Assembly: GCF_030157465.1 (NCBI RefSeq)
Contig: NZ_JAOAUU010000054.1
Location: 62,001 to 126,000 of the forward strand
Source: Zoogloea sp.
GTDB lineage: Bacteria; Pseudomonadota; Gammaproteobacteria; Burkholderiales; Rhodocyclaceae
Direction of reading: 5' to 3'
Length of the DNA: 64,000 nucleotides
The position numbers and the translations under genes are program-made. Below are positions 21,375 through 41,687 of the stretch, in pieces. The notes beneath the pieces were generated by a model, which saw only the letters and a list, made by a program, of their open reading frames with translations, ran no database searches and had not been told where the DNA came from. Every line of letters begins with the position of its first letter. Within the stretch, counting starts at the first letter, position 1.

Positions 21375-24300
21375 ATGCCAGCGCAAATCGACCTCGTGGT
21401 CGAGGGTGTTCAGTCATTCGGACAATCAGCCAAATCAAGCGCGGAGCTACCAGCCGTGAGCAGTTCTGTTAATGCAGGCTTCTCGTGGCTGGATAGTGAG
21501 CTGAACGGCGACGAGCTTTTCTACACCAGGCTCGTCGCATCGACTATCCATTGCCCCGCTGCCGGACAGGGCTTTCTAGTGGCATTTGGCTTGGCTATCG
21601 ACTCACTTGAGGCGCTGTCACAGGCATGGGTGCAGAACTCGACCGATATTTCACATGTTGTGCAGGCCGTCAAAAACGCTCGTGCGTGTCTGATCGCTTC
21701 GACAACACTCTCTTCGGTCGTGCGAAGCCTCCCCGACTTAAAACCATTGCCGAAAAGTTATTCGCTCTGGCATTCATCAGTGGACAAGGCTCGCTCCAAC
21801 TCAGATGCGAGAAGAGTCCGTCAAGCTCTCGGGCTGACACTTCTATGGCACATGGGCAAAGGTGAAGAAATCGGGGAAAGTATTTCTGACGCCCTTAAGA
21901 TCTTGGTCGACTGTAGTGCTCGTCGCGGACATCACTCGCAATTTTGGAAGGATATCATTCCTCTCATTAAACCCGAGAGCACTGTACTCGAGGGTCTTTC
22001 CAAGGAGGTGCGTCATGATCCGATCGTAAAGCTACTCCGGACTTTAGCTGGCTACGGCGTCACATGTGTCATCCCCGTGAGCCCCGCAGTTCGGTATCCC
22101 GAGGAAAAATCAGATGAAGACCTCGGTTCTGATACGCAGACCAGCGGTGAAAGATCGGAAGATCGATATTCGCAATCTGAAACGAATGAGCCAGAAGAGG
22201 ACGTGCTGGAGGAAGGCAGTCCCATCATTCGCTGGCAGGCTTCGCGCGCGACCCGCGCACCCTGGCCGCAAGTTCTGGGGCTGGAAAATTGGGATATTTT
22301 ATCTCCGCCATTGCTAAAAGCAGTTTTGGCTCACATCCCGGGAAGCTTCACAAATAACGATGTATCTGCGTATGCAATCTTGTCAGCGGTATCGCTGGTC
22401 TCTGCACTGCCAGCCCGCTTGGCATTGACGCTTCCCGTCACACAAAACGACGACATCTGGGTAGACATCCGTAACGCGCATGTGTGCTGGAATCTGGCAC
22501 AACTGGTGGCCAGAACAGCGACATCGGAAGAAATCTGGGCGGGGGGCCATCAGCCCAGCCAAATCGTCCGACTGCCGCTGCCGAAGCTGGCCGCCGTCGC
22601 ATTAAATAAAAAATATATAAATCGAGAATCTTCCGGCAATTTGCTGGCGTTTCTATTTGGAGACGATGCACAGACGGAGGACGTCTTACACGAGTACGGA
22701 CGATTCCTGCGCTCCGGCGGCGCCACTTCAGACACACCTTCCAGCTATTCGGCACGCATCGCCTATAGTTTCGGCGCAGTTGTACATCAGGTGAGCGGAA
22801 ATAAAGTTCTAGCCGCGCTCGCCAGCCTTGATCTTCGCTTGAGCGCTCCTGCTGAGCTTGACTATCTGTGTATTCGTGAGGATGCAATCTCGAACGCAGT
22901 AAGCGGAGCTTTCAGTTATCTCGGCTTTGGTGAGTGCGTTGAAACACCCGATCCACGGTATGTGGGCTCTCCCCTCTGCCCGAAGCCTGAAATCGTTAGA
23001 AACTCTCTCCAGCAGATCCGCGACGAAATGAGCAGTATCGTTGGTAGGGTTACTCCGCGCATGCCAATCAGTCGGTTTGTAAAAGAGTTCAATCGACTTT
23101 CAGAGTTGAGCGCCAAAGCTTTTGTCATTCTTAGTGCCCACCGTGGGAGCAAGCTTGAAAGAAGCAATTTCACTTCGCTCTATTCGTCGACGGAGTACTT
23201 GCAACTGAATGACAAGCTAACGCAGAACAACTCCACTCGAATCATCCCAAAGATATCGTCCGTGAAGAGTTTGCTTAACGGCCATCTTGCTGCGCTCCGG
23301 TCTCTGGCAAAAAGGCTCGCCAAGGAACATCCGGCGACAGCGGATAAAATAAATAAGATCTCGAATCTAGAAAGGCCATTCTCACCCGTTTTCTTTACTG
23401 TCGAAATTGACACTGTCGCAGCCCTTCGTCCAGTAAGGCTGGAGCAGCAATCCATTGATGGAGCTGAAACTGGAATGGCAAAAAACGGCGGACGCCACTT
23501 CATTGTTTCTGAATTGGTGAGAAGGAAAGTCTACGCGCCGTTGATAAGGGTGATCACTGGGCATGCCCGGGAGGCGGCTGCCACATTTAATCCGGCAGGA
23601 GGATTGTCACCCGCCGAGGCGTGCGAATATCTGCGCCCGTTGCTAGAAGACGTCTACGCGGATGTCGCACAGGCAAGTTGGCCATCGCTACTCCTACCCT
23701 CCAGCGTTCTTCCTCGGGTAACGATCCTGCCAAAAACCAAGCGGCGCGGAGCCATTTCCGAGTTGGAAGTCGCCGATGATTTTGATCCGCCGCCCATCCG
23801 TCTCAAAGAGCCATTTCACAACCAAACGCTCGCCTACTCCTCGTTGGGGGACTTGATTGTGAAGGAGCTTCTTTCCGGCGCCAGCGAGCTATCTACTTGG
23901 GTGGTCGTTTTTAATTCACTAATGTTTGTTGAGTTGCTTTGGCAGCCGTCGCGCATCGCTTCAGCATGGGAAAGCATTTCAAAAAAAGACATCTGGAGAT
24001 TAGGTAATACTCTGATCCTCAGAATTGAACGGCCTAGCGAACAGCCGGTAAGCATGCCTCTCCACCCCATCACCACGATGATGGTCAATGCCGCTTGGCA
24101 GAGCCCAATCCCGAGCTACCCAGAGTGCGTGACAATGACACGCAGCTGGATCTCGTCGCTTACACTGAACACCATCTGGGCATCCGAGCCAGACTCCTTT
24201 CTTGATCAGTACTCAGAAATCGCTCGCGCGTACCATGTGATTCGACTTCCGCCTTGGTTGGTGACGGCCGGAAGCACCGAAATGGAGGCTGCCGCGATAT

Positions 24301-26408
24301 CAATTTCATCTATTGCCCGTATAGCCTATGGACGTCCGGGACTCTTTGATGCACCTGAACGAAGAGTTCCACGAAAATCTCCTAATAGGAGTGATCGCGA
24401 TCTTCTTTCTCAAGTAATCCGCATCGTGAATCACATGGGAGACAACACCAAGCACTACGGTGAAGATGGTGCGCGCAAGACTACACTTACCGATAATCTT
24501 CGAAAATGGAAAGCAAACTGCGGCATTTCCATTGGCATCGCCGTCGATGTAGCGGATTGGGTTGTCGCCGAATGCAAAAAAAAGAAAAGTGAAAAATCAC
24601 ATCTTGAGGTCTCTTCGATGTCGACCTATTTATCGAGGCTGCGTCCGTTCCTTGAGAAGGTCGAGTTAAATGAAGAGCTGGAAGACCTGGACGGTACGCA
24701 ATGGGAAGAAGGGCGTCGACTCGTTTTGGGGGATTCCACTGGCGACTCCCAGAAGCAAGCCTCGTCCATTTATCGACACTTTGCGCGCTTCTGGCGAAGC
24801 AGGGGATGTATCGCAATATCTAACGACATTCTTTGGGACCCTCAAAACCAAGAAAGAATCGGCCGCTGCCACAATGCCTCCAGCACGTATGTGACGACGC
24901 GAGAGGCAGAAGCTATCGTCGGGGTAATGACCAGATCGTTCGAGGCGGGTTCTCTCGATGAAGCACGCGCCGCACTCTACGCACAATTAAATACCTCAAT
25001 CGCATTTCGCCCAGCTGAAGTCGGGCTTATTCATTTTCAGCATACATTTCCCGATCTGGATGCGTTAGAGGTAACAACTTCTGGGTACAGCCATCTAAAA
25101 CATCCAAAATCAAGCCGGCGTCGTATTTCAGTTCCACGTTCCATATGTGAGGTACTTGCCTCACTTAAAAAAAGAATCCTTTCTGCACACCCTAAATCGA
25201 GGGGGTATTTTCTCTCGACCGCCCCCGAGTCGGATCACACGCATATCGCCGACATTAGAAGCGCGATGCACTACGCCCTTCGATTCATTACAGGAGAGGC
25301 ACTGGTTAAACAGCACTCCCTGCGTGGCTCTGCTGAGTGCCGACTGGTATGGCCTGAATTTGAACAAGCCATTCAGTCGATGCAAAACTGTAATCCGCCT
25401 CCGAAAATGGATCGTGCTCCGGAGAAACGCTGGAACGATGTGGGGCTAGCCGCAGTATCTGCCGGGCACCACCCACTCTCCGCGATCAAGTATTACCTCT
25501 CAATGTGGCCTATATTTTTCTATGCGGCTAACTACCAGTGCAACTTAGATTTTAGGCCAAGATCTGGTTTCTCCCGATTCCTTCCCGGAATAAAGGAGGA
25601 AAACATTCGCCAGGTTCTTTCGCGTTCAGCTGTAAGACTAAAGAGAGCTGAAGTCTCAAATAGTGACTATGACAAATTGGAAAGAAAGGACGTTTGGCAG
25701 GAGCTCCTCTGTCGATCCCACTTCTCCAGCGATATCAAATCAATTGAGGATCTTATGCAGCCCACGTCCAGGTCACGGACCGAGGTTGCGCCGGAGGAAC
25801 TGCAGCCTGCAAGGCAGGCCTTGAAGATCAGCTACCTTGCACTTCGTTTTAACGGATGGTCACGTGAATTAAGTGCTGACACCTTCGGACTGTCTGCTGC
25901 TGACTCAAAATGGCTTGATCAGGCAATCCCTGATGTAGATGTCTTTTCAAAAGATTCAAGCCAGCGCGGCATTTCAATTAAATTCGCGAGGGAAGAATGT
26001 CCGGAAATGAGTGCAGCCATTGCGGGGTGCACTGACCTCGACCGACTGAAACTCGGTTTTCTGGCAACGTCTTCGGAAAAACGAAACTCAGCGTCGCCTC
26101 TCACTCATGTGATAGAGGCTGCACGGATATTGCTCAGTCTCATTCCGCCTCGCTTGACACTTACAGTTCTCCCAGAAATGGATCAAGAGCAGGCTCAACT
26201 CCGATCGGCTCTAAACAATATGGATAGCGCGATCGAGATTAAGCCACAGTCTCTGGTCAAGACTATGCGGTATCGAATTCAGATTGTTCCCCGCGACAAG
26301 TCCAGACAAGGACCTCGACCGCAGGGCCGGTACACAAGACTTTTCAGAGCTCTTCTCCGTTCGCAAATTTCAATTCTTTTACACGAGAAAAATAATGACC
26401 AAAAGTGA
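21375..26408 (+). CDS. Giant protein (1,677 aa) with C-terminal tyrosine-recombinase domain
   Basis: The last third holds a tyrosine-recombinase core: Arg in IAFRPAEVG (R1212), a beta-hairpin Lys in KHPKSSRRR (K1245), HSLR (H1314, R1317), AGHH (H1365) and a nucleophile candidate in IKYYLS (Y1374, nine residues after H1365). All catalytic positions appear present. A SAM-like core-binding region with SSMSTYLSRLRPFLEKVEL precedes it. The first ~1,000 residues are unrecognised and far exceed normal integrases (300-450 aa). Base composition is AT-richer than the flanks, indicating transfer. The gene overlaps the next by 14 bp. It may mobilise the island, or a smaller element within it. Confidence 0.8.
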   Translation: MPAQIDLVVEGVQSFGQSAKSSAELPAVSSSVNAGFSWLDSELNGDELFYTRLVASTIHCPAAGQGFLVAFGLAIDSLEALSQAWVQNSTDISHVVQAVKNARACLIASTTLSSVVRSLPDLKPLPKSYSLWHSSVDKARSNSDARRVRQALGLTLLWHMGKGEEIGESISDALKILVDCSARRGHHSQFWKDIIPLIKPESTVLEGLSKEVRHDPIVKLLRTLAGYGVTCVIPVSPAVRYPEEKSDEDLGSDTQTSGERSEDRYSQSETNEPEEDVLEEGSPIIRWQASRATRAPWPQVLGLENWDILSPPLLKAVLAHIPGSFTNNDVSAYAILSAVSLVSALPARLALTLPVTQNDDIWVDIRNAHVCWNLAQLVARTATSEEIWAGGHQPSQIVRLPLPKLAAVALNKKYINRESSGNLLAFLFGDDAQTEDVLHEYGRFLRSGGATSDTPSSYSARIAYSFGAVVHQVSGNKVLAALASLDLRLSAPAELDYLCIREDAISNAVSGAFSYLGFGECVETPDPRYVGSPLCPKPEIVRNSLQQIRDEMSSIVGRVTPRMPISRFVKEFNRLSELSAKAFVILSAHRGSKLERSNFTSLYSSTEYLQLNDKLTQNNSTRIIPKISSVKSLLNGHLAALRSLAKRLAKEHPATADKINKISNLERPFSPVFFTVEIDTVAALRPVRLEQQSIDGAETGMAKNGGRHFIVSELVRRKVYAPLIRVITGHAREAAATFNPAGGLSPAEACEYLRPLLEDVYADVAQASWPSLLLPSSVLPRVTILPKTKRRGAISELEVADDFDPPPIRLKEPFHNQTLAYSSLGDLIVKELLSGASELSTWVVVFNSLMFVELLWQPSRIASAWESISKKDIWRLGNTLILRIERPSEQPVSMPLHPITTMMVNAAWQSPIPSYPECVTMTRSWISSLTLNTIWASEPDSFLDQYSEIARAYHVIRLPPWLVTAGSTEMEAAAISISSIARIAYGRPGLFDAPERRVPRKSPNRSDRDLLSQVIRIVNHMGDNTKHYGEDGARKTTLTDNLRKWKANCGISIGIAVDVADWVVAECKKKKSEKSHLEVSSMSTYLSRLRPFLEKVELNEELEDLDGTQWEEGRRLVLGDSTGDSQKQASSIYRHFARFWRSRGCIAISNDILWDPQNQERIGRCHNASSTYVTTREAEAIVGVMTRSFEAGSLDEARAALYAQLNTSIAFRPAEVGLIHFQHTFPDLDALEVTTSGYSHLKHPKSSRRRISVPRSICEVLASLKKRILSAHPKSRGYFLSTAPESDHTHIADIRSAMHYALRFITGEALVKQHSLRGSAECRLVWPEFEQAIQSMQNCNPPPKMDRAPEKRWNDVGLAAVSAGHHPLSAIKYYLSMWPIFFYAANYQCNLDFRPRSGFSRFLPGIKEENIRQVLSRSAVRLKRAEVSNSDYDKLERKDVWQELLCRSHFSSDIKSIEDLMQPTSRSRTEVAPEELQPARQALKISYLALRFNGWSRELSADTFGLSAADSKWLDQAIPDVDVFSKDSSQRGISIKFAREECPEMSAAIAGCTDLDRLKLGFLATSSEKRNSASPLTHVIEAARILLSLIPPRLTLTVLPEMDQEQAQLRSALNNMDSAIEIKPQSLVKTMRYRIQIVPRDKSRQGPRPQGRYTRLFRALLRSQISILLHEKNNDQK

Positions 26409-27444: not shown

Positions 27445-28815
27445 TCAGGCTGGCTTGTCCTCCCGAAGCGCGTCGGCAGGGGGAAGGTCGGCCCGCAGCG
27501 CAGCGTAGGCGTCCAGGATCCCTTCACCATACTGCTCGCGATTCCAGTCGCCCCCAGCCGATGCCGTGTCTTTCACGAGGGTCTTGAAGGCTTCGACCCG
27601 TTGCCATTTCTGGGGGTAGCGCGCGCGGATCTCCTCGCCGCGGTAAAGCAGCCACAGGGCTGCGGTTGCAGCCACCTGGGGTGTGGCGAAGGATGTTCCG
27701 TCGCCGTAGCCGTAAGTTTGCCGCCCCTTGCGATCGGCCGAGGCGCGGCGGATCGGCCAGGCTGGTGCGCAGAGATCCACCTCGGGCCCGAAGCTGCTGC
27801 CGATCCAGGGGATCAGGGCCGGCGTGCAGCCGCCGACGGCGAGGGTCCGGTTGAGGCGGGCCGGTGCCACCACCAGGTCCCACACGTTGCCTGCGGCGGC
27901 AACCAAAATGACGCCATTCTCATAAGCGTAGTCGATGGCCTTCCTGAGCCTGTCGTCGATGAGGGTCAGCGCCATCCCCATGCTCAGGGTGATGACGCTG
28001 CAGCCATGCCGCACCAGATGTTCGATGGCGAGGGCCAGGGCTCCCTGCACGTGGTTGATGATCACGCTGTCACAGATGCGGACGGGGATGAACGGCAGCT
28101 GCGGCGCGGCACCGAAATAGGGCCTGTCGACGCTCGGGTCGAAGCCAGCCAGTACGCTGGCGGTGCGGGTGCCGTGGCCGTCATTGGCGCCGCCAAGCAT
28201 CGGGTCGAGGGCAGAGAATTCGCTGGCAAAGGGGTTTCCCACGTACTGGAACGGGTCCCGCGTGAAGTCGCCCGGGAAGAAATTGCGGTCGAAGTCGGTC
28301 AGCACGAAGCTGGAAGGCTGGCCGCCCTTGAAGCCCAGGCAGGGGATCTCCCGAAACCCTGTGTCGATCTGACCGACCCGCAGGCCTTTCCAGTCGATCC
28401 GCTCCGCCGAGCCCACCAGGCCCCAGGCGTCCACCAGCCGGGTACGCTTCAGATGCCAGTCCCAGCCATCGATCACGAGGTCCGACTCATCCAGCTCGGC
28501 GCGCGGGATGCCCGCCAGCTCGGCTGGCTCCCGCGTGGCGAGCAGCTCCGCCAGCCGGCCCTGGTTGATCGGGGTTGCACCCTCGGCCTTCATGCCTTCC
28601 ATGATCTCGGCGAAGCTGGGCGGAAAGCCGGTGATGGGCTGCGTCGGCGCACTCTCTATCATCCGGCTCACGGCCGCCGGCATCAGCACGATCCGGTGGC
28701 TGCCGACAGCCAGCACCGGGTCGCCTTGCTGCTTGCCGGTCAGCTTGCGGGCATATCTGGCGATCTTCGCCAGCTTCTTGGGGTCTCCGGTGACGAGGTA
28801 GTAAGGCTGGGCCAT
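27445..28815 (-). CDS. Subtilisin-like serine protease (S8 family)
   Basis: A 456-aa protein with the S8 triad in order: Asp in GQIDTGF, His in NDGHGTRTASVLAGF, oxyanion Asn in VAAAGNVWDL and Ser in GTSFATPQVAATAALW. No signal peptide is visible, so it is probably cytoplasmic; the ~140 residues before the catalytic Asp may be a pro- or sensor region. It reads in the same direction as the FGE/MoxR operon upstream but ~330 bp away. Cytoplasmic subtilases occur as effectors in bacterial conflict systems, so the location fits that role, but a housekeeping role cannot be excluded. Confidence 0.85.
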   Translation of the reverse strand: MAQPYYLVTGDPKKLAKIARYARKLTGKQQGDPVLAVGSHRIVLMPAAVSRMIESAPTQPITGFPPSFAEIMEGMKAEGATPINQGRLAELLATREPAELAGIPRAELDESDLVIDGWDWHLKRTRLVDAWGLVGSAERIDWKGLRVGQIDTGFREIPCLGFKGGQPSSFVLTDFDRNFFPGDFTRDPFQYVGNPFASEFSALDPMLGGANDGHGTRTASVLAGFDPSVDRPYFGAAPQLPFIPVRICDSVIINHVQGALALAIEHLVRHGCSVITLSMGMALTLIDDRLRKAIDYAYENGVILVAAAGNVWDLVVAPARLNRTLAVGGCTPALIPWIGSSFGPEVDLCAPAWPIRRASADRKGRQTYGYGDGTSFATPQVAATAALWLLYRGEEIRARYPQKWQRVEAFKTLVKDTASAGGDWNREQYGEGILDAYAALRADLPPADALREDKPA

Positions 28816-29149: not shown

Positions 29150-30064
29150 TCATTCTCTGCCCCACTTTTCACCCCCGCCGGCGTCGCTGCCCGCAGCCTG
29201 GCCGGCGCGCTCCGCTTGCGCCTGCCCGTCCGCGCGCCGCGTCGCCTCCTGCCCTACCGGGCCTGGCCTTTGACCTGGGGCAAGGCGGAAGCCAATGGTG
29301 TAGAGGCGGCTGCCTGGCTCGCCCCAGATGCGGTAGGCAGCGCGGCAGAACTGGCCGTTGTAGAACCACGACCCGCCGCGCAGCACGCGGAAGACGCCCT
29401 CCGACGGGCCGGACGGGTCGATCTGCGGGCCTTGCGGATAGTCGCCGTACCAGTCGGCGCACCATTCGTCGACGTTGCCGTGCATCTCGTACAGCCCCCA
29501 CGGGTTGGGCGGCAGGGATTTGACCGGGACGGTGCGCTTCCGGTACAGGCCTTTCTTTCCGTCGGCATAGGGGTTGTTGCCGTCGTAGTTCACCTGCTCC
29601 GGCGTGATGTTCTTGCCGAAGGAGAAGGGGGTGGTCGTGCCCGCCCGGCAGGCATTTTCCCACTGAGCCTCGGTGGGCAGGCCGGCGGCCAGGCCGGGCA
29701 CCAGCTCGTTGAGGCGGGCGATGAAGGTCTGAACGTCGTCCCAGCTCACCTGCTCCACCGGGTTGGCCGGGTCGTCCTTGAACTCGCTCGGGTTGTCGCC
29801 CGTCACCGCCTGCCACAGAGCCTGGGTGCAGGCGGTATCCGCCAGCCAGTAGCCGCAGGTGAGAGTGACTAGATGCGGGGTTTCGTCGTCGTACCGATCC
29901 ACCTCGCCCTCCGGCGAGCCCATCAGGAAAGTCCCCGGCTGAATCCAGCGGAAAGTCTGCTTCACCCCGTTCAGGTTCAGCGTCGCCGCCAGCCCCCACT
30001 CGGCGTCTTCTTCCCACTCGCTGGCCCAGGGCGGCGGGAACGGATCGGGTAGCACGAAGCTCAT
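29150..30064 (-). CDS. FGE/SUMF1-domain protein, DGR target with C-terminal variable repeat
   Basis: A 304-aa protein that is almost entirely a formylglycine-generating-enzyme fold (C-type-lectin-like): [54 protein letters not shown] and [19 protein letters not shown]. The segment 227-260 is the variable repeat of a diversity-generating retroelement (template at 30227-30328). In DGR targets this fold presents diversified ligand-binding loops rather than doing catalysis. Start chosen at ATG 30064. It follows the template repeat in the TIR/MoxR operon orientation. Its last ~210 codons duplicate the end of the 30532-33591 gene exactly. Confidence 0.85.
   Translation of the reverse strand: MSFVLPDPFPPPWASEWEEDAEWGLAATLNLNGVKQTFRWIQPGTFLMGSPEGEVDRYDDETPHLVTLTCGYWLADTACTQALWQAVTGDNPSEFKDDPANPVEQVSWDDVQTFIARLNELVPGLAAGLPTEAQWENACRAGTTTPFSFGKNITPEQVNYDGNNPYADGKKGLYRKRTVPVKSLPPNPWGLYEMHGNVDEWCADWYGDYPQGPQIDPSGPSEGVFRVLRGGSWFYNGQFCRAAYRIWGEPGSRLYTIGFRLAPGQRPGPVGQEATRRADGQAQAERAGQAAGSDAGGGEKWGRE
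29174..29780 (-). repeat. Exact ~607-bp direct duplication, copy 1
   Basis: Identical to 30577-31183 (offset 1,403 bp) as far as I can align by eye. It covers the C-terminal ~200 codons of the FGE domain, including the variable repeat. Beyond 29780 the two genes stay related to about 29940 but with roughly 10-15% differences, so the exact block looks like recent gene conversion or duplication. Confidence 0.85.
29284..29385 (-). repeat. DGR variable repeat VR1
   Basis: The 102 bp align without gaps to the template repeat at 30227-30328. There are 17 differences; at 15 of them the template has A on the coding (minus) strand. The other two are adjacent C-to-G and G-to-A changes. Encoded residues [17 protein letters not shown] correspond to [17 protein letters not shown] in the template. 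This bias is the hallmark of DGR adenine mutagenesis. Confidence 0.88.
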
Positions 30065-30226
30065 GCCGCCTCCCGATAGCGCCGGCCCGACGGGCTTTCG
30101 GCGGTGCTGCTGCACGGCCTACTCACGCGCCGGGTGGCCTTGGGTTTTTGCCACGACCCGTGGGGGCGCCGCAGACTGGATGATCGTCTGGTCAAAGGCG
30201 GAGTCTCCTGCTTTTGAGCTGGGGAA

Positions 30227-30328
30227 GGCGGAAGCCAATGTTGTTGTTGCGGTTGCCTGGCTCGTTCCTGTTGCGGTTGGCAGCGCGGCAGTTGCGGCCG
30301 TTGTTGTTCCACGACCCGCCGCGCAGCA
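30227..30328 (-). repeat. DGR template repeat (TR)
   Basis: Read on the minus strand it would encode [19 protein letters not shown] and then [12 protein letters not shown], i.e. runs of AAC codons, the typical adenine-loaded template in which AAC-to-any mutations make most amino acids without stops. It is not itself part of an intact gene. It lies between two target genes and just after a truncated accessory gene, the usual TR location, but no reverse transcriptase follows it. Confidence 0.88.
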
Positions 30329-30333
30329 TGGGG

Positions 30334-30535
30334 TAATCCACCCACTCCCGCTTGCTCTGGGGCGGGAAGACGGAACCCTCCACCCACCCACGCACACCGC
30401 CCAGAAGCTGTCGACGCCCCGGTCCACGAAATGCTGGCTTGATGCCACGACGCGGTGCTGGGCGCAGAAGGCGTTGAGGGCGTCTTGCGCGGCGTCGGGG
30501 TCGAAGGCGGGGATGGTGAAGAAGCGGAATCTCAT
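30334..30535 (-). pseudogene. Truncated DGR accessory gene (HRDC-type)
   Basis: The ATG at 30535 overlaps the stop of the upstream target gene (ATGA). The product begins [17 protein letters not shown] and goes on to [20 protein letters not shown], which I recognise as the N-terminus of small HRDC-domain proteins found next to some DGR reverse transcriptases. After about 48 codons the frame shifts, and in the other frame the protein continues as [17 protein letters not shown] and then runs directly into the template repeat. The HRDC part is missing. The loss looks like one deletion plus a frameshift. Confidence 0.6.
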
Positions 30536-33500
30536 GGTTTTTTGCTTCCCTTCCTGCTGTGAGTCTTTGAGCCTCGCCCGCCGGCGTCGCTGCCCGCAGC
30601 CTGGCCGGCGCGCTCCGCTTGCGCCTGCCCGTCCGCGCGCCGCGTCGCCTCCTGCCCTACCGGGCCTGGCCTTTGACCTGGGGCAAGGCGGAAGCCAATG
30701 GTGTAGAGGCGGCTGCCTGGCTCGCCCCAGATGCGGTAGGCAGCGCGGCAGAACTGGCCGTTGTAGAACCACGACCCGCCGCGCAGCACGCGGAAGACGC
30801 CCTCCGACGGGCCGGACGGGTCGATCTGCGGGCCTTGCGGATAGTCGCCGTACCAGTCGGCGCACCATTCGTCGACGTTGCCGTGCATCTCGTACAGCCC
30901 CCACGGGTTGGGCGGCAGGGATTTGACCGGGACGGTGCGCTTCCGGTACAGGCCTTTCTTTCCGTCGGCATAGGGGTTGTTGCCGTCGTAGTTCACCTGC
31001 TCCGGCGTGATGTTCTTGCCGAAGGAGAAGGGGGTGGTCGTGCCCGCCCGGCAGGCATTTTCCCACTGAGCCTCGGTGGGCAGGCCGGCGGCCAGGCCGG
31101 GCACCAGCTCGTTGAGGCGGGCGATGAAGGTCTGAACGTCGTCCCAGCTCACCTGCTCCACCGGGTTGGCCGGGTCGTCCTTGAAGTCGCTCGGGTTGTC
31201 GCCCGTCACCGCCTGCCACAGGGCCTGGGTGCACGCGGTATCCGCCAGCCAGTAGCCCCGGGTGAGGGTGACTTCGTGCTGGGTTTCGTTGTCGCGCCGA
31301 CCCACCTCGCCCTCCGGCGAGCCCATCGGGAAGCTGCCGGGGGCGATCCAGCGGCAGCGCTGGGTGACGGTGGTGGATCGTCCGGGGACGTCGAATTCGG
31401 CCCAGAGGCCGAATTCATCGGCTCCGTGGCGCACAGCCCACGCAGGCGGGCGCAGCAAGACATCAAGCGGGTTCTCTGGACCACCGATATCCCACCAGCC
31501 CGCTTGAGGGAGTGTGATTTCTCCGGCGACGGAGGCCGACAGCGCTGAGGAATTTCCTTCAATCGGCAGTGGCTCATGGGCCAGGACATGCATCTTTTGC
31601 CTTGGCACCCAAGCCAACTCGCTTCCAGCTTGCCGAACAGCACGAACGTACCCATCCACGAAACCAACGGATTTCGCCCACACCGGCCGCTCAAACGGTT
31701 CGATCACCACGTCCCTACGCCGCGTAACGATCCGGTACGCCTGCCCACCCGGCAGATTCAGCACCCGACCCGGCACCAGCACATGACGAGCATCCACATC
31801 ACGCGCAACGACCGGCGCGATGGTCACCGGCAGTTCATCCTCCAGGTTGCAGATGAGCGCCGAGGGCACTGTTGACGAGGGTGACGCCTCCACCAGTTCC
31901 AGCCGCAGGCCCATGCCTTTCCCGCCGTTCTGGCTGACTTCCGTTGCAGCGACCAGATGGAGCGGGCCGGACGAAATACGATCGGGCGGAATCAGCCAGT
32001 CCAGCTGATCCAGCCGCAAACCTTCAGGCAAGCCGACACGCCCTTCCCGGATGTCCTCAGCCCTCACCAACGCCCAGGCGGTCTGCAATGCGTCGCCGCC
32101 TCGCCCTACGGCGCCGGGCGCCCGCATACTGAGACCGCCGATGAAATCGCCCAGCACCCCCGCCAGCTCTCTCGCATCGCGCCCTGGTGGACGGGCGTAG
32201 AGACAGCGGGCGAGGTCTGTGAGTAGGGCGTCGGCGGCCTGGCCGTGGGCCTGCAAATCGTTGTCGTCCGCGACGATCCCCGAGCGGCGCACTTCGCTCA
32301 TGAAGATTGCGTGGAGCAGCGGGGAGGCGTGCGTGAGTTCGGCCAGATGATGGGCGACGAGTCGCGACAGTACCTCCGGTTGGCTGGCGCGGAGTTGCCT
32401 GAGCACGCCAAGCGCGGGCTCCACTGCGCCCACCGCCAGCGCGCAGCCAGTCGCCACCGCACAGACGTCGCCGTCCTGCCACAGCTCGGCTTCGGTACCG
32501 ATGTCGACGGCGAGGTCGTCGGGCGAGTCCTGCAAGGCAAGGCGCAGCTGTCGCACCAAGCGCCACGACACGTGGCTGTTGCCGAACAGCGCGGCACGAA
32601 GATGATCCAGCCCTCGCTGGTAGCGGCCCCGCGCCTGTTCGCCTTGATGATCGTCCGTTGCGTGCCCCCCGAGAAGGCTCAGGCCACGGCCCTCGCCGAG
32701 CAGCGCCACATCGAACACTTCCCGCAGTTCATCTGGCAGCAGGCGCAATGGCACCGGGGCCAGCAGCAGCGGACGAACGCCAACCGCACCGAGCTGACGG
32801 GCGAGGGCTGCCCAGCGGCGCTGAAGCCCGGAGCCCGAGCGATAGCTGCCAGCATCGCCCAGCACCACGACGGGGCTGCCATCGAAGCGCAGGCTGCTGG
32901 CCAGGCCAGATGCCTGAAGCCACTCGCCGGTCTCCCCGTTCTTGGTCACCAGCACTTCGATACGCCGGTCGAGCAGGCGGCGAAGCTGATTGAGCAGGGA
33001 GAGCAGATCGTCGCGGAACGGGGTGAGCACGCCGCTCCAGTCCAGCACCACCTGCACGCACCCCGGCCATTTGCGTCGGGCGAGGCGCGGCAAGGGCTGC
33101 ACGCTGCGCCCACTGGCGATGCGATCGACCGCGCGGGGTAGATCGGGCGCCTGCCCTGCCTGGTAGGGGCGCAGGTAGGCGCTCACAAAACTGGCAAAGT
33201 GCTCGGCGCTGACGAGGGGCACGGCGGGCAAACGTTCCGCGCCGGGCCTGGACGAGACATAGCGCGTCGTGTCAAAGCTGGCTGGCTCGCTGGTCAGCCA
33301 GGCGGGGGGCTGCTGCTGCCGGGGCGCCGCCGGAATGAGCAGATCCTGGGCGACTCGCCAGAAGATCGGGCCGAAGCCGGTGGCGGTGTCTGGCGGGAGT
33401 TTGGGCTGGGGCGCATCGCCCCCCCCATCCGGCGGACGCTGCTGGGGGTCGAGCTTATTGGAGGGCGGCGTTTCTGCCGCCGTTTCAATCGGCTCGAAAC

Positions 33501-33591
33501 CCACGGCGCGGCAGGCCGCAATCTGCTCAGACTCGGGCAGTGCGTCGAGAATCCGGAGGATGTCGGCGGCAAAGACGCGGGGCTTGTTCAT
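30532..33591 (-). CDS. vWA-like/FGE fusion protein of a MoxR conflict system, DGR target
   Basis: A 1,019-aa protein. A short N-terminal helical domain (about 1-35, [19 protein letters not shown]) is followed by a Pro-rich linker, then a von Willebrand A-like domain near 185-300 ([14 protein letters not shown] with a partial [15 protein letters not shown]), a long middle region, and a C-terminal FGE domain from about 765. The variable repeat covers residues about 935-968. It starts 2 bp after the MoxR stop and overlaps the accessory gene start. MoxR plus vWA pairs are known chaperone-like ATPase systems; versions with effector and FGE domains were described as NTP-dependent conflict systems. 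Target binding by the variable FGE tip is inferred. Confidence 0.8.
30577..31183 (-). repeat. Exact ~607-bp direct duplication, copy 2
   Basis: The second copy of the block at 29174-29780, here forming the last ~200 codons of the vWA-like/FGE gene. The left borders (29174 and 30577) and right borders (29780 and 31183) are sharp. Confidence 0.85.
30687..30788 (-). repeat. DGR variable repeat VR2
   Basis: Identical to VR1 at all 102 positions, so it differs from the template at the same 17 sites. Independent mutagenic homing into both genes could not give the same result; copying between the two genes explains it. Confidence 0.88.
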
Positions 33592-33593
33592 GT

Positions 33594-34607
33594 TCAGCGA
33601 TGCCTGGCGCCGCCTTTGTGAAGCGCCAGTTTCTGGAGCTGCGCCAATCGCCGTTCGTGCATGTCAGCCGGTGTCGTGGCGAGCACCTTGATCATGTCGA
33701 GGAACTCGGAAGTGCCGGGCAGGTAGCGCCCTGTCTTGGCCAGGCTGTCACGGGCGTCGGCTACATAAGCGGCGGCCTGTAGCATGAGCTTTTTCGAACA
33801 CTTGGCCGGCCACTTGAGGGCAGCCTGATGACGGGAACCCACATTGACAAGCCAGCCGATGAGAGCTTCCCGATCATCGGGCAGTTCCAGCCGATGAACC
33901 AGGCAGCGGCGCAGGAAGGCGTGGGGCAGCTCCCGCTCCTCGTTGGTGGTGATGATGACAAGGGGCCGGGTGGCTTCGGTGCATGCGACCTCTGTTCCGC
34001 CATAGGGCTCCCGAAAACCCAGGTTGGCGAGAACTTCGAGCAGCGCATTGGGGAGATCGGGATCGGCCTTGTCGATTTCGTCGATCAGCAGCACGGCGCG
34101 GCCGGTTTCAGGGCTCCACTTTTCAGGCGGCGTTCCTGGCGCGGCGAGCTTGTGATTACGGTCGCTGTTGACCTCGTCAAGCCGCTCACGCGCACTTTTC
34201 CAGTTGTAGGCCCACCACAATGCCCCGGGCAGAAGGTAGGCGCGCTCGTTCTTCAAGGGCTGATCCGCTTTGGCCACCTGTGCATCGGCAAGGCGCGCTA
34301 CCGCATCGAAACGCCATTTGAGATCGGTGGGCTCGGTGCGACCGTCGATCACCACCGACACGAACGGCCGCTTGGCCGCAGCCGCGGCAGCCCGCGCGGT
34401 CTCGCTCTTGCCGGTTCCCGGATCGCCCCGCAGCAGCAGTGGCCGGCCAGTGACCTCGGCGGCATGCAGGGCGGCGACGGTGTCTTCGTCAAAGACATGC
34501 ACGGACTTGGGCCAAGTGCCATCGGGGGGGATGGGGATAGGCTCAGTCGCAGGATAGTCGGGCAGGGATGACTCACCTGATGCTTTACCAAGGGCGATCT
34601 TAGTCAT
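33594..34607 (-). CDS. MoxR-family AAA+ ATPase
   Basis: A 337-aa AAA+ protein with Walker A LLRGDPGTGKSETAR, Walker B AVLLIDEIDKADPDLPNALL, sensor 1 PLVIITTNEERELP and a C-terminal lid. The chosen start is the ATG at 34607, which overlaps the end of the upstream TIR gene by 8 bp; frames reaching to 34793 would lie inside that gene. MoxR ATPases remodel proteins together with vWA partners, and the vWA-like/FGE protein follows after 2 bp. In this operon it probably acts as the NTP-dependent switch between sensing and the TIR effector. Confidence 0.9.
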   Translation of the reverse strand: MTKIALGKASGESSLPDYPATEPIPIPPDGTWPKSVHVFDEDTVAALHAAEVTGRPLLLRGDPGTGKSETARAAAAAAKRPFVSVVIDGRTEPTDLKWRFDAVARLADAQVAKADQPLKNERAYLLPGALWWAYNWKSARERLDEVNSDRNHKLAAPGTPPEKWSPETGRAVLLIDEIDKADPDLPNALLEVLANLGFREPYGGTEVACTEATRPLVIITTNEERELPHAFLRRCLVHRLELPDDREALIGWLVNVGSRHQAALKWPAKCSKKLMLQAAAYVADARDSLAKTGRYLPGTSEFLDMIKVLATTPADMHERRLAQLQKLALHKGGARHR

Positions 34608-35979
34608 TTGAGATTTTCTCGATTTGTATGAGACAGCGCCATGAGGGGCCGATGAGTTCCCGTTCTTTGGTGCCAAAATCATTGGCCTCTTTCCCGGTTC
34701 GAACCAGCACGTCGATCTCCAGCCCCATATCGACGAGCCAGCGTCGCAGAATGCGCGCTCCGGCGGCCTCGGGGGAGTCGCCCAGCAACGCAATCGTCAC
34801 TCGGGCCTCGCGATCATCACTACTCATCGAATTGAGCGCCTCGGTCAGATCGGCAATGTCGTCCGGGCTTCTGGGATTGGGCGGAAAGGTGGGCTGATAG
34901 CCCTCGAACTCTGGCACCATGCTCCAGAGTTGATCGAGAATTATTGAGCTTTGGTCCTTCAGAATGCCGGCAGTGACTGTTCCTTGGTCCATCGTCCGCT
35001 CCAGACCAAACTGGTTCAGCGCTCCTAACGTTCCCGCCTCAACCGAGATACGCGCCTTGCGCCCACCCTGGCTATGGGCCGCGGCGAAGGCTTGGGTTGC
35101 CAGCCACTTTGCTGCAATCGGAGTCGTATGGTCTCCTAGTGCCGGAAGCTGGGCAGCCAACCGACACGCGCCCAAGCGCAATAGCTCCGCAACGATTGCG
35201 ACGCAATCATTCCGCAGCTCTTTACGCTTCTCGGCTCCAAGATTAGCCAGCGCTGTCCGGTCATTCTTGTTGAGGGACTCGAGAGTAGATCGGAGTTCGT
35301 TCAGCGCCTTCGCCGAATCGATTGCTTTGGTGGGGCTGAACTTCCTGTCCCAGTCGTCTTTGAGGTCTTTCAGCGTCTTCAGCTCGGTCCACTTGGCCAG
35401 TCGTTCGAAGATGCTTTGGGCGCATTCCGCTGCCAACTTTTCAAGACAGTGGTCATTGAGTGGGTCTGTCGCGCGTGGCACCGCGGCATTGACGTCCGCC
35501 AGAAAATCGTCAAGCCACTGCTGGTCTGAGTGCCAGTGGTCGCCATTGCAGGCAGGGTACGCATTGATACTTGCAAGCCAGCAAAGCTCATCGGGCAACT
35601 CGTGGGCTGCGGGCATTTTCCCCCCACCTACGAGCACCACGCGCACATTCGGTGGATTGGCCATGCCGTCTCCACGACGTTCTTTGGTGATCTGTGCCTC
35701 TCGCCGCACCCAGTCCACGCCTTCAAGCTTTTCGCGCCTGTGAAACTCGTCCGCCCAGCCCGGCGAGATGACGAACAGAACCAGATGCGCCAGCCTCAAC
35801 GCCGTGTCGATCTCTTCGGGGAATGCTGCGCCGACTGGGATGACACGCTGATCCAAGAAGACCCGGTTCTCTCCCAGACGCGCCTCCAGAAAACCATGCA
35901 ATCTCCTGGCATCCTCGAGCGCCGGATCTCGCCGATAACTGATGAAAACCCCACCCCGAAAATCGCCCTGCTGAGCCAT
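34600..35979 (-). CDS. TIR-domain protein, first gene of the MoxR operon
   Basis: A 459-aa protein with an N-terminal TIR domain: GGVFISYRRDPALEDARRL, FLDQRVIPVGAAFPEEIDTA, AHLVLFVISPGW and the WVRREAQ helix with the likely catalytic Glu. Prokaryotic TIR domains cleave NAD+ or make signal nucleotides on infection. The remaining ~290 residues are helical with a C-terminal alpha/beta part (VTIALLGDSPEAAGARILRR) of unknown type. Start at ATG 35979; the frame to 36102 has no better site. It is divergent from the hydrolase gene at 36213 across ~230 bp that should hold both promoters. Confidence 0.85.
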   Translation of the reverse strand: MAQQGDFRGGVFISYRRDPALEDARRLHGFLEARLGENRVFLDQRVIPVGAAFPEEIDTALRLAHLVLFVISPGWADEFHRREKLEGVDWVRREAQITKERRGDGMANPPNVRVVLVGGGKMPAAHELPDELCWLASINAYPACNGDHWHSDQQWLDDFLADVNAAVPRATDPLNDHCLEKLAAECAQSIFERLAKWTELKTLKDLKDDWDRKFSPTKAIDSAKALNELRSTLESLNKNDRTALANLGAEKRKELRNDCVAIVAELLRLGACRLAAQLPALGDHTTPIAAKWLATQAFAAAHSQGGRKARISVEAGTLGALNQFGLERTMDQGTVTAGILKDQSSIILDQLWSMVPEFEGYQPTFPPNPRSPDDIADLTEALNSMSSDDREARVTIALLGDSPEAAGARILRRWLVDMGLEIDVLVRTGKEANDFGTKERELIGPSWRCLIQIEKISND

Positions 35980-36212
35980 TGCTTTTCCCCAAACCCTGCA
36001 AACCCAAGAGCACGCTGTTCCGGACTCAGCATATGGCATGAGACTGCCCGCTGTCCATCGTGCGCCGAGGGCCTGGATGGTCGCCCGCCAAGCTCGATCC
36101 AACAGCTACAAAAACATCGAGAACGACTCACATTGACGCCATCAGCATCATCACCTAAACCAGAATGGTGCCGGTGCAATCTGTCTCGGCCTCAACAGGG
36201 GGGAATGCGAAG

Positions 36213-37019
36213 ATGTCGCTCAAATACGATGCAGCACGTCCGCTCTTCATCGCGCCGGAAGCACGCCTGAGCATCGATCAGGCAAGCCAGGCGCTGGACC
36301 AGTGCTACCAGACTAAAATGCCGGTGCTGATCTACCTCCACGGGCGGGCCAAGGGCGTTGGAGAGCCGAAGAAAAGCGTGGAATCCGGCATCTACCGGGA
36401 GCTCGCTGCCTACGGGGTGGCCGTGCTGGGCTTCACCTGGGATGCCGACGACGGGGGATACGATGAAAACCGCCCGATCGCATCCTGCGACGACTTCGCC
36501 AAGCTGCTCAACGCCCTGCGGGGCTATCTTGACACCCATAACGTGGCTCGCCCCGCACTGCTGGCGCACAGCATGGGTAACATCATCGTTGCCGAGTCAG
36601 CCAAAGACGACCTGCTGACGGCGGATGCGGGCCTCCTCTTCAGCAATCTCGTGCTCACCTCGGCCGCGGTCAAGACAAAACGACATGCTCGCTGGCTGGA
36701 CAACATCGGCGCCGCAGAACGCATTTACGTGAGCATCAATGAGCACGACTTGGTGTTGAGCGCCGCCGGCTTTGCGTTTCGCCCCAACATGCTTGGCTGC
36801 GATCTCCGAGCACCCGGCGCAACGTCTGCCCGCGTGAGCTATGTTGACGTGAGCGCGTGCAGGGTGAATCACCGCTATTTCGTGCCCCAGGGGCAGGAAA
36901 AGAAGGCCAGCCTGGCTACCCTGTATCGACAACTGGTCACCGGCTCGGCCGTTGATTTTTCCGGGATAGCCAAGCCTGGGGACTTGAACGGAATTGGGGT
37001 GCAGCGACTGATGGATTGA
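36213..37019 (+). CDS. Alpha/beta hydrolase (DUF900-like)
   Basis: A 268-aa alpha/beta hydrolase with the oxyanion strand PVLIYLHGRA, nucleophile elbow LLAHSMGNII (Ser), and the acid and His in NEHDLVLSA and ACRVNHRYF. No signal peptide is seen. ATG 36213 follows GGGGGAATG and is preferred to the frame start at 36165. The substrate is unknown. It stands alone between two minus-strand conflict operons; DUF900-type hydrolases recur beside TIR and DUF2235 genes, which suggests an effector role (inference). Confidence 0.8.
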   Translation: MSLKYDAARPLFIAPEARLSIDQASQALDQCYQTKMPVLIYLHGRAKGVGEPKKSVESGIYRELAAYGVAVLGFTWDADDGGYDENRPIASCDDFAKLLNALRGYLDTHNVARPALLAHSMGNIIVAESAKDDLLTADAGLLFSNLVLTSAAVKTKRHARWLDNIGAAERIYVSINEHDLVLSAAGFAFRPNMLGCDLRAPGATSARVSYVDVSACRVNHRYFVPQGQEKKASLATLYRQLVTGSAVDFSGIAKPGDLNGIGVQRLMD

Positions 37020-37068
37020 GCAATGCGAGCGAGCCGCGCACGGCGGGTGGCCAGCGAAGTCGCACAAA

Positions 37069-38136
37069 TCAAACCGCTGGCATCACACCCAAGTGCGTGA
37101 GGCCTCGCTGAACCAATTTGAGCGCCTCGCGCATGTTGCGAGTTGTCAGGAGTTGTCGAACCTCCGCGTCGTCAAGCCCGCAGTTGAGCGCCGCCGGCAG
37201 ATCAATCCGCGCCTTCATGATCGCCGTCTGCAGGTCTGACAGCAAGCTAGAAGTGTCGCGGACGCTTGCGGGTAAAGGCAAAATGTGGCCGACATCAGCG
37301 AGGTTGGCGAGCGCAGGCGTCTTTTCCCTCTGCCCGGACTCGGTCAGTTCATGCGGCATACTGCCGGAGGGTTCGCCCAGCAATGCCTTGGCGAGGACCT
37401 CTGAAGCACCGCCGAAGCCACCGAGCAGGAAGAGCGGGCGCCTAACCTCCAGATTGAGCAGCACTTCCTCAAAGATCCCGGGCGCAAAACCACGATACCC
37501 TTCAACCTTGCCGCCAAGCACGATACGCGCCGCAATGGGCGGTATGGTTTCAGCCTGAGGTACATCGGGGATGAAAAGCTCAATCCCGTCCAGCGCGAAT
37601 CTACGCATCGTGCTGAGGCAGACGGCCTCACACCACAAATCCTGTCGCTTGCGGGCCTCATCGTCCGGCGAGGCAGCCTGCGGAAGCGCTTCCGGCAAAG
37701 CCGACAGCCCAGCCATCGAGGGTGTCACCCTCACGATGCGACACACGTTGATCCATTGAGCCTCGATGGCAGGGGTGATCTTTTGATAATAGGGCCATGC
37801 GCTGTGATTGATCAGCCGACCAGTCTGCGCTGACGCGGCAGCGGACTCCACGCCACCAGGCGGACGCTCGGCGGTGCGCCGTTCGGACTCCACAGCTTTT
37901 TCTGCGCTGACGAGACGGAGTAAGTCGTATGTGAAATTATCTTCTGTATCTGCCCAGTGGCCTCCGTATGCAAGGCTTACGCCGGCCCGCAGCAAGGGCC
38001 TGGAGACACGGATCAGCAGCTCCCTGAGGTGGTCGAGCCCCAAACCACGCGCCAGCAGGTTCTCCCGTTCAAAGGAGACGGAGATGGCAACAAGAGGGGG
38101 GGTGCTGTTGGGCGCGGAGATGGAATTCGAGCTCAT
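37069..38136 (-). CDS. SLOG-like nucleotide-sensor protein paired with a TIR gene
   Basis: A 355-aa protein. PLVAISVSFERENLLARG, GVSLAYGGHWADT and RPLFLLGGFGGASEVLAKA are the strand-loop signatures of SLOG (LOG-related Rossmann) domains, which bind NAD-derived or other nucleotide signals. No SIR2 or other effector domain is seen attached. The ATG (38136) overlaps the TIR gene stop (ATGA). TIR-made signal plus SLOG receptor is the logic of Thoeris (ThsB/ThsA), so this pair may be Thoeris-like with a different output. Confidence 0.65.
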   Translation of the reverse strand: MSSNSISAPNSTPPLVAISVSFERENLLARGLGLDHLRELLIRVSRPLLRAGVSLAYGGHWADTEDNFTYDLLRLVSAEKAVESERRTAERPPGGVESAAASAQTGRLINHSAWPYYQKITPAIEAQWINVCRIVRVTPSMAGLSALPEALPQAASPDDEARKRQDLWCEAVCLSTMRRFALDGIELFIPDVPQAETIPPIAARIVLGGKVEGYRGFAPGIFEEVLLNLEVRRPLFLLGGFGGASEVLAKALLGEPSGSMPHELTESGQREKTPALANLADVGHILPLPASVRDTSSLLSDLQTAIMKARIDLPAALNCGLDDAEVRQLLTTRNMREALKLVQRGLTHLGVMPAV

Positions 38137-39422
38137 GGGGCGATCCGGTCGAAGCTGATGAACCGTACCCTGGAAAAGAAGTCCCCAAGATAGCGGAGTT
38201 CCGGGCCCGAAAGATCGCGCCCCGGATAGAAGACCCGGCATTTCGTGTTGTTTCTGACTCGCGGAATCTGCATCAAGGTCGCGATGTCAGGCCGCCAGTT
38301 GAGCACAATGCAGTCTGACTCGTCGGGCATACTCCGCCCCAGCGCCTGGTTGTGAGCACCGAGCAGCACATTGCGCAGCACCGACGTCACGATCTTTTCC
38401 TCCTGAAGGGGGATGGCCGAGGACCAACGGATCGTAGGCACATTGCCAAACTCCGGGATACATACGGTCTCATCACCGTCACTCAGGGCATCCACAACAA
38501 GCACTGGATTGAGCATCCAGAACTGGTTGCGACGCCCTCGCACCCTCTCCTGGCGAGGCTGCCGGAACAGGGAGAGTTCCCGACGGCACCAGGGGCGATC
38601 GGCATAGACGGCACTGCGTACCGCAATCAAAGCCGCCGCACGAGCGCTGCCAGCGACGTTGCCATCCAGAACCTTGTCGAACAGGGAACCAAACGGAATG
38701 TCATTCTCGTCAAAAAAAGCAGCGATCTGGGTCTGGCTGTAGATATAGTCGCGAATGCGCTTGGCGGGCTCAGTGCCGTCGGCCTTGGCGTGGCTCAGAA
38801 ATATCTTCACCTTTGAACGGCTCACTTCGAGCGGCGCACCGCCACCGCGGAACTCGTCGAATTGCAGCATCAGGTCACAAAGGGCTTCGGTGAGTTGCTT
38901 TAGCAACGAGCGGATTACCACTTCCCGCTGTTCGAGGGACCACCTGCCATCTGGCCCAGTAGCCGCAACGCCCGCTGGACGGAGGAAGTTGCAGGCATGC
39001 ATGGCAGGCGGGACGTTATACGCCGTACCGTCGAGGGCAACAGGCAAGAGCACCCGCCTGGAGGCCACAGCGGACTCCGCCAGTTCATTGATCCAGTGCC
39101 GCCATGTAGCGTCAGCGATGAGATTCGCATCGATCAGCAGGATCACCACCTGAAGGTTGTTGTCGCTGGACTCCGGATAACGCGGGAACTCGCCGGACTC
39201 TTTGCGCCGTTCCCTCGGAATGCAGGGTGGCAGCACGTGCGGGAGGGATTCCGGCGGCTTGGGTGCTTCGGGCGCGGGTAGGCTACGGTAAAACACCTGT
39301 GGCCCGAGGCCGTTGGGTCTCACCCATCCGTAAATCGTCCGGGCGAGTGCTTCGCCCTCGGAAAAGCCGGGGTGCCAGAGCACATAGACCTCGGGAACCA
39401 CTTCATTGCCTTGGTGGATCAT
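38133..39422 (-). CDS. TIR-domain protein with an additional N-terminal alpha/beta domain
   Basis: A 429-aa protein. A C-terminal-half TIR domain (about 205-340) has VKIFLSHAKADG, AAFFDENDIPFGSLFDKVL and WCRRELSLF with the presumed catalytic Glu. The first ~180 residues form another TIR-like or Rossmann-like unit (PEVYVLWHPGFSEGEALAR, LQVVILLIDANLI), probably a degenerate second TIR. It starts 2 bp after the DUF2235 stop and overlaps the SLOG gene. It is the likely signal-producing or NADase subunit of this operon. Confidence 0.85.
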   Translation of the reverse strand: MIHQGNEVVPEVYVLWHPGFSEGEALARTIYGWVRPNGLGPQVFYRSLPAPEAPKPPESLPHVLPPCIPRERRKESGEFPRYPESSDNNLQVVILLIDANLIADATWRHWINELAESAVASRRVLLPVALDGTAYNVPPAMHACNFLRPAGVAATGPDGRWSLEQREVVIRSLLKQLTEALCDLMLQFDEFRGGGAPLEVSRSKVKIFLSHAKADGTEPAKRIRDYIYSQTQIAAFFDENDIPFGSLFDKVLDGNVAGSARAAALIAVRSAVYADRPWCRRELSLFRQPRQERVRGRRNQFWMLNPVLVVDALSDGDETVCIPEFGNVPTIRWSSAIPLQEEKIVTSVLRNVLLGAHNQALGRSMPDESDCIVLNWRPDIATLMQIPRVRNNTKCRVFYPGRDLSGPELRYLGDFFSRVRFISFDRIAP

Positions 39423-39424
39423 CT

Positions 39425-40963: not shown

Positions 40964-41067
40964 GATGGATGCCTCTCAGGTTGTCGGGCTTTCAGCTAAG
41001 CACACGAACCGATCGGTTTCAATGACAAACAGGCAAGACACCGCTCTTGATGCAGACAGAACCCGCG

Positions 41068-41511
41068 CTACTCTGCAATCCGCGCAAGAAGCTCAGCATA
41101 TGCAAGCATGTCCTGTCGTAGCGCCTCCAGTTGCTTACGAAAAAGATCCTGTTCGGCTTTATCGAGCGAGCAGGCTGCCTCGAAATCGGCATGCCAGCGC
41201 GTCAGGAAAGGCCTCAGGATGTCGTTGAGCACCGCGATCGCCACCGGCGCAAACTTGCTGGCGCCGGGGCCATGCCGCTTCAGAATGTCCCGTGTCGACG
41301 CGAACAGAGAATGCAGGCTGGCAAGTGCAGTTTTCTCCACACCCTCATCAGGTGGTAACGGCTGGGTGCTGACGCGGGTAGCGAGTTCAATGTACAACTC
41401 CCACGCAGCATTGCGGTCGGCATCCTGCGGCGTGAACTCCGCCTCCACGAAGCCGGCTTTCAACTGCAGCTTGGTCAGCCCCCAGTTCGTTAGCAGATCT
41501 CTCCATTTCAT
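41068..41511 (-). CDS. Unrecognised small protein upstream of the DUF2235/TIR/SLOG operon
   Basis: A 147-aa, mostly helical protein (MKWRDLLTNWGLTKLQLKAG, then ARVSTQPLPPDEG and a long helix AEQDLFRKQLEALRQDM). No motif is recognised. It lies 104 bp upstream of the DUF2235 gene in the same direction and could share its transcript. It may be an adaptor or regulator of that operon; no function is claimed. Confidence 0.6.
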   Translation of the reverse strand: MKWRDLLTNWGLTKLQLKAGFVEAEFTPQDADRNAAWELYIELATRVSTQPLPPDEGVEKTALASLHSLFASTRDILKRHGPGASKFAPVAIAVLNDILRPFLTRWHADFEAACSLDKAEQDLFRKQLEALRQDMLAYAELLARIAE

Positions 41512-41687
41512 GTCGTCATCCCTCTTGATATGAGCTTTCTCTGGTGATCGGCCTGCGGCCTGCGCCCCCAGAAGCTATCGCTGCCATCGGTCGCCAGTCC
41601 GATTCTGGGTAAAGGTCGCTACAAACTCACATGGCTGCTCGCTTGTTATCGAACCGCTCACACAACGCGGGCAAGAAGGTCTCACCC

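Follow-up and report, generated by a model that had tools for sequence, protein, structure and literature searches.

The window analyzed here, a 64,000-nucleotide (nt) stretch of contig NZ_JAOAUU010000054.1 in a Zoogloea sp. genome (GCF_030157465.1; positions 62,001 to 126,000), carries the template repeat (TR) and variable repeats (VRs) of a diversity-generating retroelement (DGR) for which no reverse transcriptase (RT) was found in the assembly. Comparison with an intact counterpart in the same genus indicates that it is very probably a decayed DGR, whose RT was deleted in place and whose two FGE-domain targets were left frozen. An active DGR is expected to combine a TR/VR pair that differs at template adenines with a DGR-type RT gene, an accessory gene of the Avd or HRDC type, and targets bearing the VR in a C-terminal domain of the C-type lectin (FGE-like) fold. 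The window has the first (15 of 17 substitutions at template adenines, p=2.3e-9), and both of its target genes are predicted to be DGR targets of this kind. The RT gene gave no match in the genome and is deleted relative to the congener G542; of the accessory gene there is only an HRDC-type stump, no search for Avd having been made in the genome. This combination of retained TR and VRs, a missing core and an intact counterpart in a relative is that of a degenerate, RT-less DGR.

The TR and the two VRs lie on the minus strand at the positions given in an earlier note made from the sequence alone. Each VR differs from the TR at 17 of 102 nt, and 15 of these mismatches fall on the 26 adenines of the TR (hypergeometric p=2.3e-9), reproducing the counts of that note; the observation that it had named as capable of overturning a DGR, a spread of substitutions away from template adenines, is thus not what the TR/VR comparison gives (15 of 17 are concentrated there). 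Since 15 of the 17 mismatches sit at TR adenines and just one of the 12 VR adenines is mismatched, the direction of transfer was from TR to VR. The 15 adenine changes are distributed over the first (8) and second (7) codon positions with none at the third, and convert N and R codons to those for F, Y, I, W, G, S, L and T in the VR. At the remaining sites the two repeats agree at 74 of 76, the two exceptions belonging to a single codon (CGC to CAG, R to Q). This TR/VR pattern is the signature of a DGR. FGE genes are multi-copy in this genome (seven matches, the TR region itself counted as one), which could recall an ordinary third copy of an FGE C-terminus that has drifted; the adenine bias (p=2e-9), the lack of adenine changes at third codon positions (0/15) and the intact orthologous DGR in the genus leave such a drifted copy a negligible chance. 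The TR as a chance FGE repeat was likewise rejected by the adenine bias.

The two VRs are identical to each other and are contained in a 609-nt tract that is itself present in two identical copies; because both lie inside this tract, they constitute one record rather than two independent cases of adenine bias. The identity of the tract reflects either a recent gene conversion or a duplication that included the VR.

Deletion of the core relative to an intact congener

We searched for an intact counterpart in a genus sample of 23 genomes of mixed quality. One of these, G542, has the locus intact, in the order large target, HRDC accessory gene, RT, TR and small target, and its RT is 56% identical to the DGR RT of the relative G292. 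The window aligns with G542 at 75% nucleotide identity over 34538-31651, at 86% over 31446-30317, through the accessory stump, and at 91% over 30334-29174, from the TR on. The two points that flank ~1.3 kb in G542 touch in the window, and the absent sequence comprises the C-terminus of the accessory gene, with its HRDC domain, and the whole RT gene. Because the intact G542 orthologue has its RT there, it is at the junction of stump and TR that the RT is missing. The same gene order recurs in G292 and G018; the RT of G292 has homologues in brt of the phage BPP-1 (35.6%, with 79% of the query aligned) and in plasmid RTs that are annotated next to avd.

The stump matches the G542 accessory gene down to its VDY codons, with the last matching base at about 30332, and the retained TR sequence TGCTGCGC starts at 30328, three bases past this point. 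Over the same stretch the stump falls 7 nt short of the G542 gene, and so has lost the frame. Compared with G542, the TR has also changed at either end: on the 5' side it begins at the deletion junction, and on the 3' side a single base immediately beyond it has been lost. The short sequence ACCGCG occurs at both deletion ends in G542, so the deletion may have taken place between short repeats.

Short repeats also bear on whether the junction is an assembly artefact, in which repeats made the assembler skip the RT. The TR, the VRs and the 609-nt copies are of the type that confuses short-read assembly, and ACCGCG is shared by both deletion ends in G542. Yet the junction joins a unique accessory gene to the TR, and the ~6 nt shared in G542 are not reproduced in it; nor would a misjoin explain the separate 7-nt net change in the stump or the further 1-nt deletion near the other end of the TR, and the RT is found on no other contig. 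An artefact is accordingly very improbable, and a misjoin was rejected as the likely cause on the junction bases, the frame loss of the stump and the deletion at the TR end.

The window genome (G000; 4.70 Mb in 174 contigs, rated 100% complete) yielded no match to RVT_1; searches with a profile built from six DGR RTs (E<=10) and with one DGR RT as query (1e-5) were equally negative. The profile was run on seven genomes, of which five matched, the two without a match being G000 and its congener G133. Two of the five, G292 and G018, had supplied sequences to the profile, so that their matches are built in; those of G104 and G094 are independent, and G036 yielded just two fragments. The lack of an RT noted earlier for the 64 kb hence extends to the whole assembly. 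Of the two readings offered by the earlier note, an RT elsewhere finds no support in this assembly, while a system frozen after diversifying gains it from the intact G542 cassette, which places the RT at the stump/TR junction. Activity of such a distant RT in trans has been proposed for some degenerate loci of Thiohalocapsa PB-PSB1, as described in PMC10907252, and the near-complete agreement of TR and VRs at non-adenine sites would suit it; given that three kinds of RT search came back empty in an assembly rated complete, we regard a trans-acting RT as exceedingly improbable.

The stump is itself recognizable as part of a DGR accessory gene. Searched with its translation, 150 genomes of the family gave four matches: its own genome, G018, G104 and G133. 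It is 49% identical to the accessory proteins of the same-family G018 and G104 over 49 and 59 residues, respectively, the G133 match being weak (26 residues, E=0.007). The intact accessory proteins have an HRDC domain and adjoin an RT, while the stump has one sub-threshold Pfam match, no NCBIfam match and no HRDC match. A class-wide accessory search matched 151 of 369 genomes; among the matches listed, most begin only after residue 50, within long frames, and a few at residues 1-3. The late-starting matches are presumably HRDC domains of other proteins (RecQ or RNase D). Viral contigs scanned with the stump gave 28 stretches that fitted a pattern, none of them confirmed.

Probable cessation of diversification

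The intact cassettes provide a baseline against which the window can be measured. The TR/VR test covered five cassettes (the window, two loci of G542, G292 and G018) along with two further templates (those of G545 and of the G542 locus L106); the loci of G337, G165, G177, G302 and G164 and L107, L108, L109 and G104 stood outside it. In the four intact cassettes, all eight TR/VR comparisons have every mismatch at a TR adenine, with 11 to 17 per VR. Their paired VRs differ from each other at 16 and 21 (the two G542 loci), 11 (G292) and 9 (G018) sites, exclusively at TR adenines, as opposed to 0 of 102 in the window. A fifth cassette, that of G545, also retains its core; its VRs differ at 19 sites, and one of them has two non-adenine mismatches to the TR. 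In G292, the copies are identical over the 300 nt that precede the VRs (0/300 differences) though the VRs themselves differ, as an active DGR combined with gene conversion should give; the corresponding count for the second G542 locus (207/300) looks out of register and was not used.

In G542 as a whole, an RT match and a TR-like repeat occur together at five loci (L098, L099, L106, L108 and L109; on contig C7 near 0.65, 1.33, 1.52 and 1.89 Mb and on C10 near 0.53 Mb), as against a window genome in which no RT was found.

The TRs of the window and G542 differ at seven sites, and at all seven the window VR has the base of the window TR. The simplest reading of this agreement would be that the DGR was still at work in the window lineage once this had separated from G542, with the loss coming afterwards. 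We posit that the ancestral locus comprised, in order, a MoxR AAA gene, the large FGE target with VR1, the HRDC accessory gene, the RT, the TR and the small FGE target with VR2. Here, error-prone copying of the TR, with random bases at adenines, would have generated copies that were pasted into either VR, so that the FGE domains of two targets in the MoxR-AAA operon were rewritten at their adenine-coded positions. A deletion of ~1.3 kb, reaching to the 5' boundary of the TR, would then have taken the C-terminus of the accessory gene together with the entire RT. The TR would thereby have become inert and retain no role, and the last VR to be written would have been fixed in both targets, where gene conversion probably made it identical; the targets would now be binding proteins, no longer changing, in a defence-type operon. 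In all likelihood diversification has ceased and left the targets frozen.

Several observations weigh against this account or limit what it can draw on. First, the agreement at all seven sites might also come from TR/VR conversion. Second, the agreement of TR and VR at 74 of 76 non-adenine sites means that the RT loss is recent or that the TR is still in use. Third, the VR identity is supporting evidence rather than proof because the G292 flanks are also identical despite the presence of an RT. Fourth, the two non-adenine mismatches of the window are by themselves no mark of decay, as one VR of the RT-bearing G545 also has two. Finally, an RT could, strictly speaking, still sit in a gap between the 174 contigs, though the deletion itself lies within one contig.

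A different kind of objection is that the RT might be lost only in the assembled majority genome, while other cells of the population keep the intact cassette and their VRs continue to vary. G000 may be a metagenome assembly, and in PB-PSB1 the long reads described in PMC10907252 show intact and broken variants together for DGR 3 and DGR 7. The two VRs on one contig are identical, though, which does not suggest ongoing diversification, and we consider such a mixed population unlikely.

The decayed DGR of the window and its intact G542 counterpart form a matched pair within one genus, with the same target operon either retaining its DGR or having had the RT cleanly deleted. This pair would allow a direct test of the value of a DGR to its host, through the selection acting on frozen VRs and the rate of TR decay without copying, and would also test whether sister VRs become identical through gene conversion and not through retrohoming. 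The nucleotide comparison of the window and G542 targets (nonsynonymous divergence, dN, of 0.20 with synonymous divergence, dS, of 0.74, and dN 0.081 with dS 0.21) covers time both before and after the RT loss and is uninformative on later selection. Frozen targets of this type escape RT-centred DGR surveys.

A third variable repeat and decay elsewhere in the genus

A third VR, distinct from these two and likewise frozen, is located further along the window, at the C-terminus of a TIR-nSTAND1-FGE gene. The TR that it fits is one in G542, to which it has 20 mismatches: 17 sit at TR adenines and 3 at the 77 other sites (p=1e-9). As a target of the window TR it was rejected, with 33 mismatches, 17 of which are at non-adenine sites. 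The G542 orthologue of the TIR-nSTAND1-FGE gene lies directly upstream of the TR that fits, with RT reading frames further on. A search of G000 with this G542 TR (E<0.1) recovered the window TR (85%), the third VR (81%) and the two known VRs (72%), and no such TR was found beside the third VR in G000. The window TR and this G542 TR are related, but only the latter fits the third VR at non-adenine sites. The window genome may thus be read as having lost the cores of two DGRs; no trace of the second core was found in G000. The third VR, the accessory stump and the use of VR identity as a sign of no recent diversification go beyond the earlier note.

In G542, the RT near the TIR-nSTAND1-FGE orthologue (L106, C7 ~1520.7-1521.7 kb) occurs in two reading frames, and may itself be frameshifted or broken. 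A second L106 stretch (957, plus strand) has 42 mismatches, 22 of them non-adenine; it looks out of register and was not used.

Comparable remnants are seen in other members of the genus. In G133 (L027, contig C61; 616-723), an FGE target has a VR near 1044 that fits the G545 TR (15 of 21 mismatches at adenines, p=5e-10); after this target come an accessory-gene stump and, close to the end of the contig, an integrase-core transposase gene, and the DGR-RT profile found no RT in that genome at E<=10. VR-like stretches also lie beside short RT fragments with stop codons in G036 (C90:14126-14665) and G544 (C67:21576-22287), apparently representing further DGR decay. Taken together, the VRs that fit two TRs in an RT-less window genome, the VR and stump without an RT in G133, and the RT fragments of G036 and G544 would be signs of repeated core shedding. 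We tentatively raise the rather doubtful possibility that such shedding is a repeated, perhaps selected, step in this genus, in which a useful VR is converted into the sister target, the mutator is lost and the sensor is thereby locked.

Target operon and its surroundings

The features of the window are collected in the table below.

Table 1. Positions of the DGR remnants, targets and associated genes in the window (position 1 is its first nucleotide)
Feature	Position	Strand	Remarks
DGR template repeat (TR)	30227-30328	minus	readable in the target frame; RT-less
Variable repeat 1 (VR1)	30687-30788	minus	C-terminal part of large FGE target; 15/17 mismatches at TR adenines
Variable repeat 2 (VR2)	29284-29385	minus	C-terminal part of small FGE target; identical to VR1
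Identical tract, copy 1	29174-29782		609 nt, 100% identical to 30577-31185; contains VR
Identical tract, copy 2	30577-31185		609 nt; contains VR
Stump of HRDC-type DGR accessory gene	30332-30535	minus	~70 N-terminal codons; HRDC domain absent
Deletion junction	30329-30332		uncertain by a few bases; ~1.3 kb of G542 sequence absent
Large FGE target gene	30532-33591	minus	1019 aa, open; FGE-sulfatase domain at residues 748-970
Small FGE target gene	29150-30073	minus	307 aa from ATG at 30073, open; FGE-sulfatase domain
MoxR-like AAA ATPase	33594-34793	minus	directly upstream of large target, as in the intact G292 and G018 loci
Third, separate VR	45283-45387	plus	C-terminus of TIR-nSTAND1-FGE gene; fits a G542 TR
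TIR-nSTAND1-FGE gene	42462-45452	plus	996 aa; carries third VR; G542 orthologue 89% (nt)

The FGE fold that the earlier note had assigned to the two targets is borne out by Pfam, with FGE-sulfatase (PF03781) matching both (E 3e-43 and 1e-42). Genome contigs scanned with the large target gave 20 stretches and 10 loci from distant phyla, mainly via this FGE domain. No vWA or VMAP domain was detected in the large target by Pfam. The AAA protein encoded next to it matches AAA_5 over the cut-off, and bpMoxR with 19.9 bits, under the cut-off of 27.

Beyond the AAA gene, a defence-type neighbourhood (34600-42320) includes TIR genes at 34600-36102, 38133-39422 and 41688-42320, a SLOG cluster 2 protein at 37069-38241 and a Tle1-like hydrolase at 39425-40963, and a subtilase gene is present on the other side of the targets at 27445-28815; PADLOC matches across this neighbourhood are weak. 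By analogy with the systems described in PMC7159879, the TIR, SLOG, Tle1-like and subtilase neighbours suggest a role for the target operon in biological conflicts. A 1677-aa open frame at 21375-26408 on the plus strand had no Pfam match, and no tRNA was found in the window.

The window genome has a second FGE pair (L102) on contig C58, its frames (8391-11201 and 7467-8387, minus strand) lying back to back; neither an accessory gene nor an RT or TR was found in between. In the congener G545, an FGE pair related to this one has an accessory gene, RT and TR between its members. Against the G545 TR, the core-less FGE pairs of the window genome (C58), G036 (C49) and G542 (C9) show 11 to 30 non-adenine mismatches of 83.

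Relation to known systems

We recognized no paper on this locus in the literature searched. RT-less, "degenerate" DGR loci as such have already been published for PB-PSB1 (PMC10907252). As described there, these loci resemble the window in keeping targets and some other parts with key machinery missing or pseudogenized, and in having CLec/FGE targets in putative conflict-system proteins, with TIR and nSTAND1 among their domains. Unlike the window, each PB-PSB1 class is described as keeping one complete locus, with diversification seen at all incomplete or remote loci except DGR 1. The same account ties the RT loss at some PB-PSB1 loci to transposons and arrays resembling miniature inverted-repeat transposable elements, whereas the loss in the window looks like a simple deletion.

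The DGR of Treponema denticola, as presented in PMC4891356, parallels the intact relatives of the window in having an HRDC accessory gene beside the RT, there overlapping the RT gene. It has the accessory gene between TR and RT, while in the intact relatives the order is accessory gene, RT and TR between two targets. T. denticola isolates without RT and TR are reported in that source to keep target remnants; the window, in contrast, keeps its TR. The prototype, the DGR of the Bordetella phage BPP-1, shares with the window the adenine-specific transfer from TR to VR, and its brt is homologous to the RT of the intact relative G292. It differs, per the description in PMC7159879, in diversifying a phage tail protein and in having the four-helix accessory protein Avd rather than an HRDC protein, and the window is without an RT.

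With respect to function, PMC7159879 places MoxR-AAA operons with diversified FGE targets among the DGR-equipped conflict systems. The VMAP and MoxR-vWA ternary systems described in it are comparable to the window in pairing a MoxR-like AAA gene with an adjacent large protein that ends in a DGR-diversified FGE-type domain; they differ from it in the vWA and VMAP components, which Pfam does not recover in the large target, and in the bpMoxR assignment, for which the AAA protein remains under the cut-off. Lacking an RT and a whole accessory gene, the window locus does not qualify as an active DGR; it is a further, well-resolved example of the known degenerate type.

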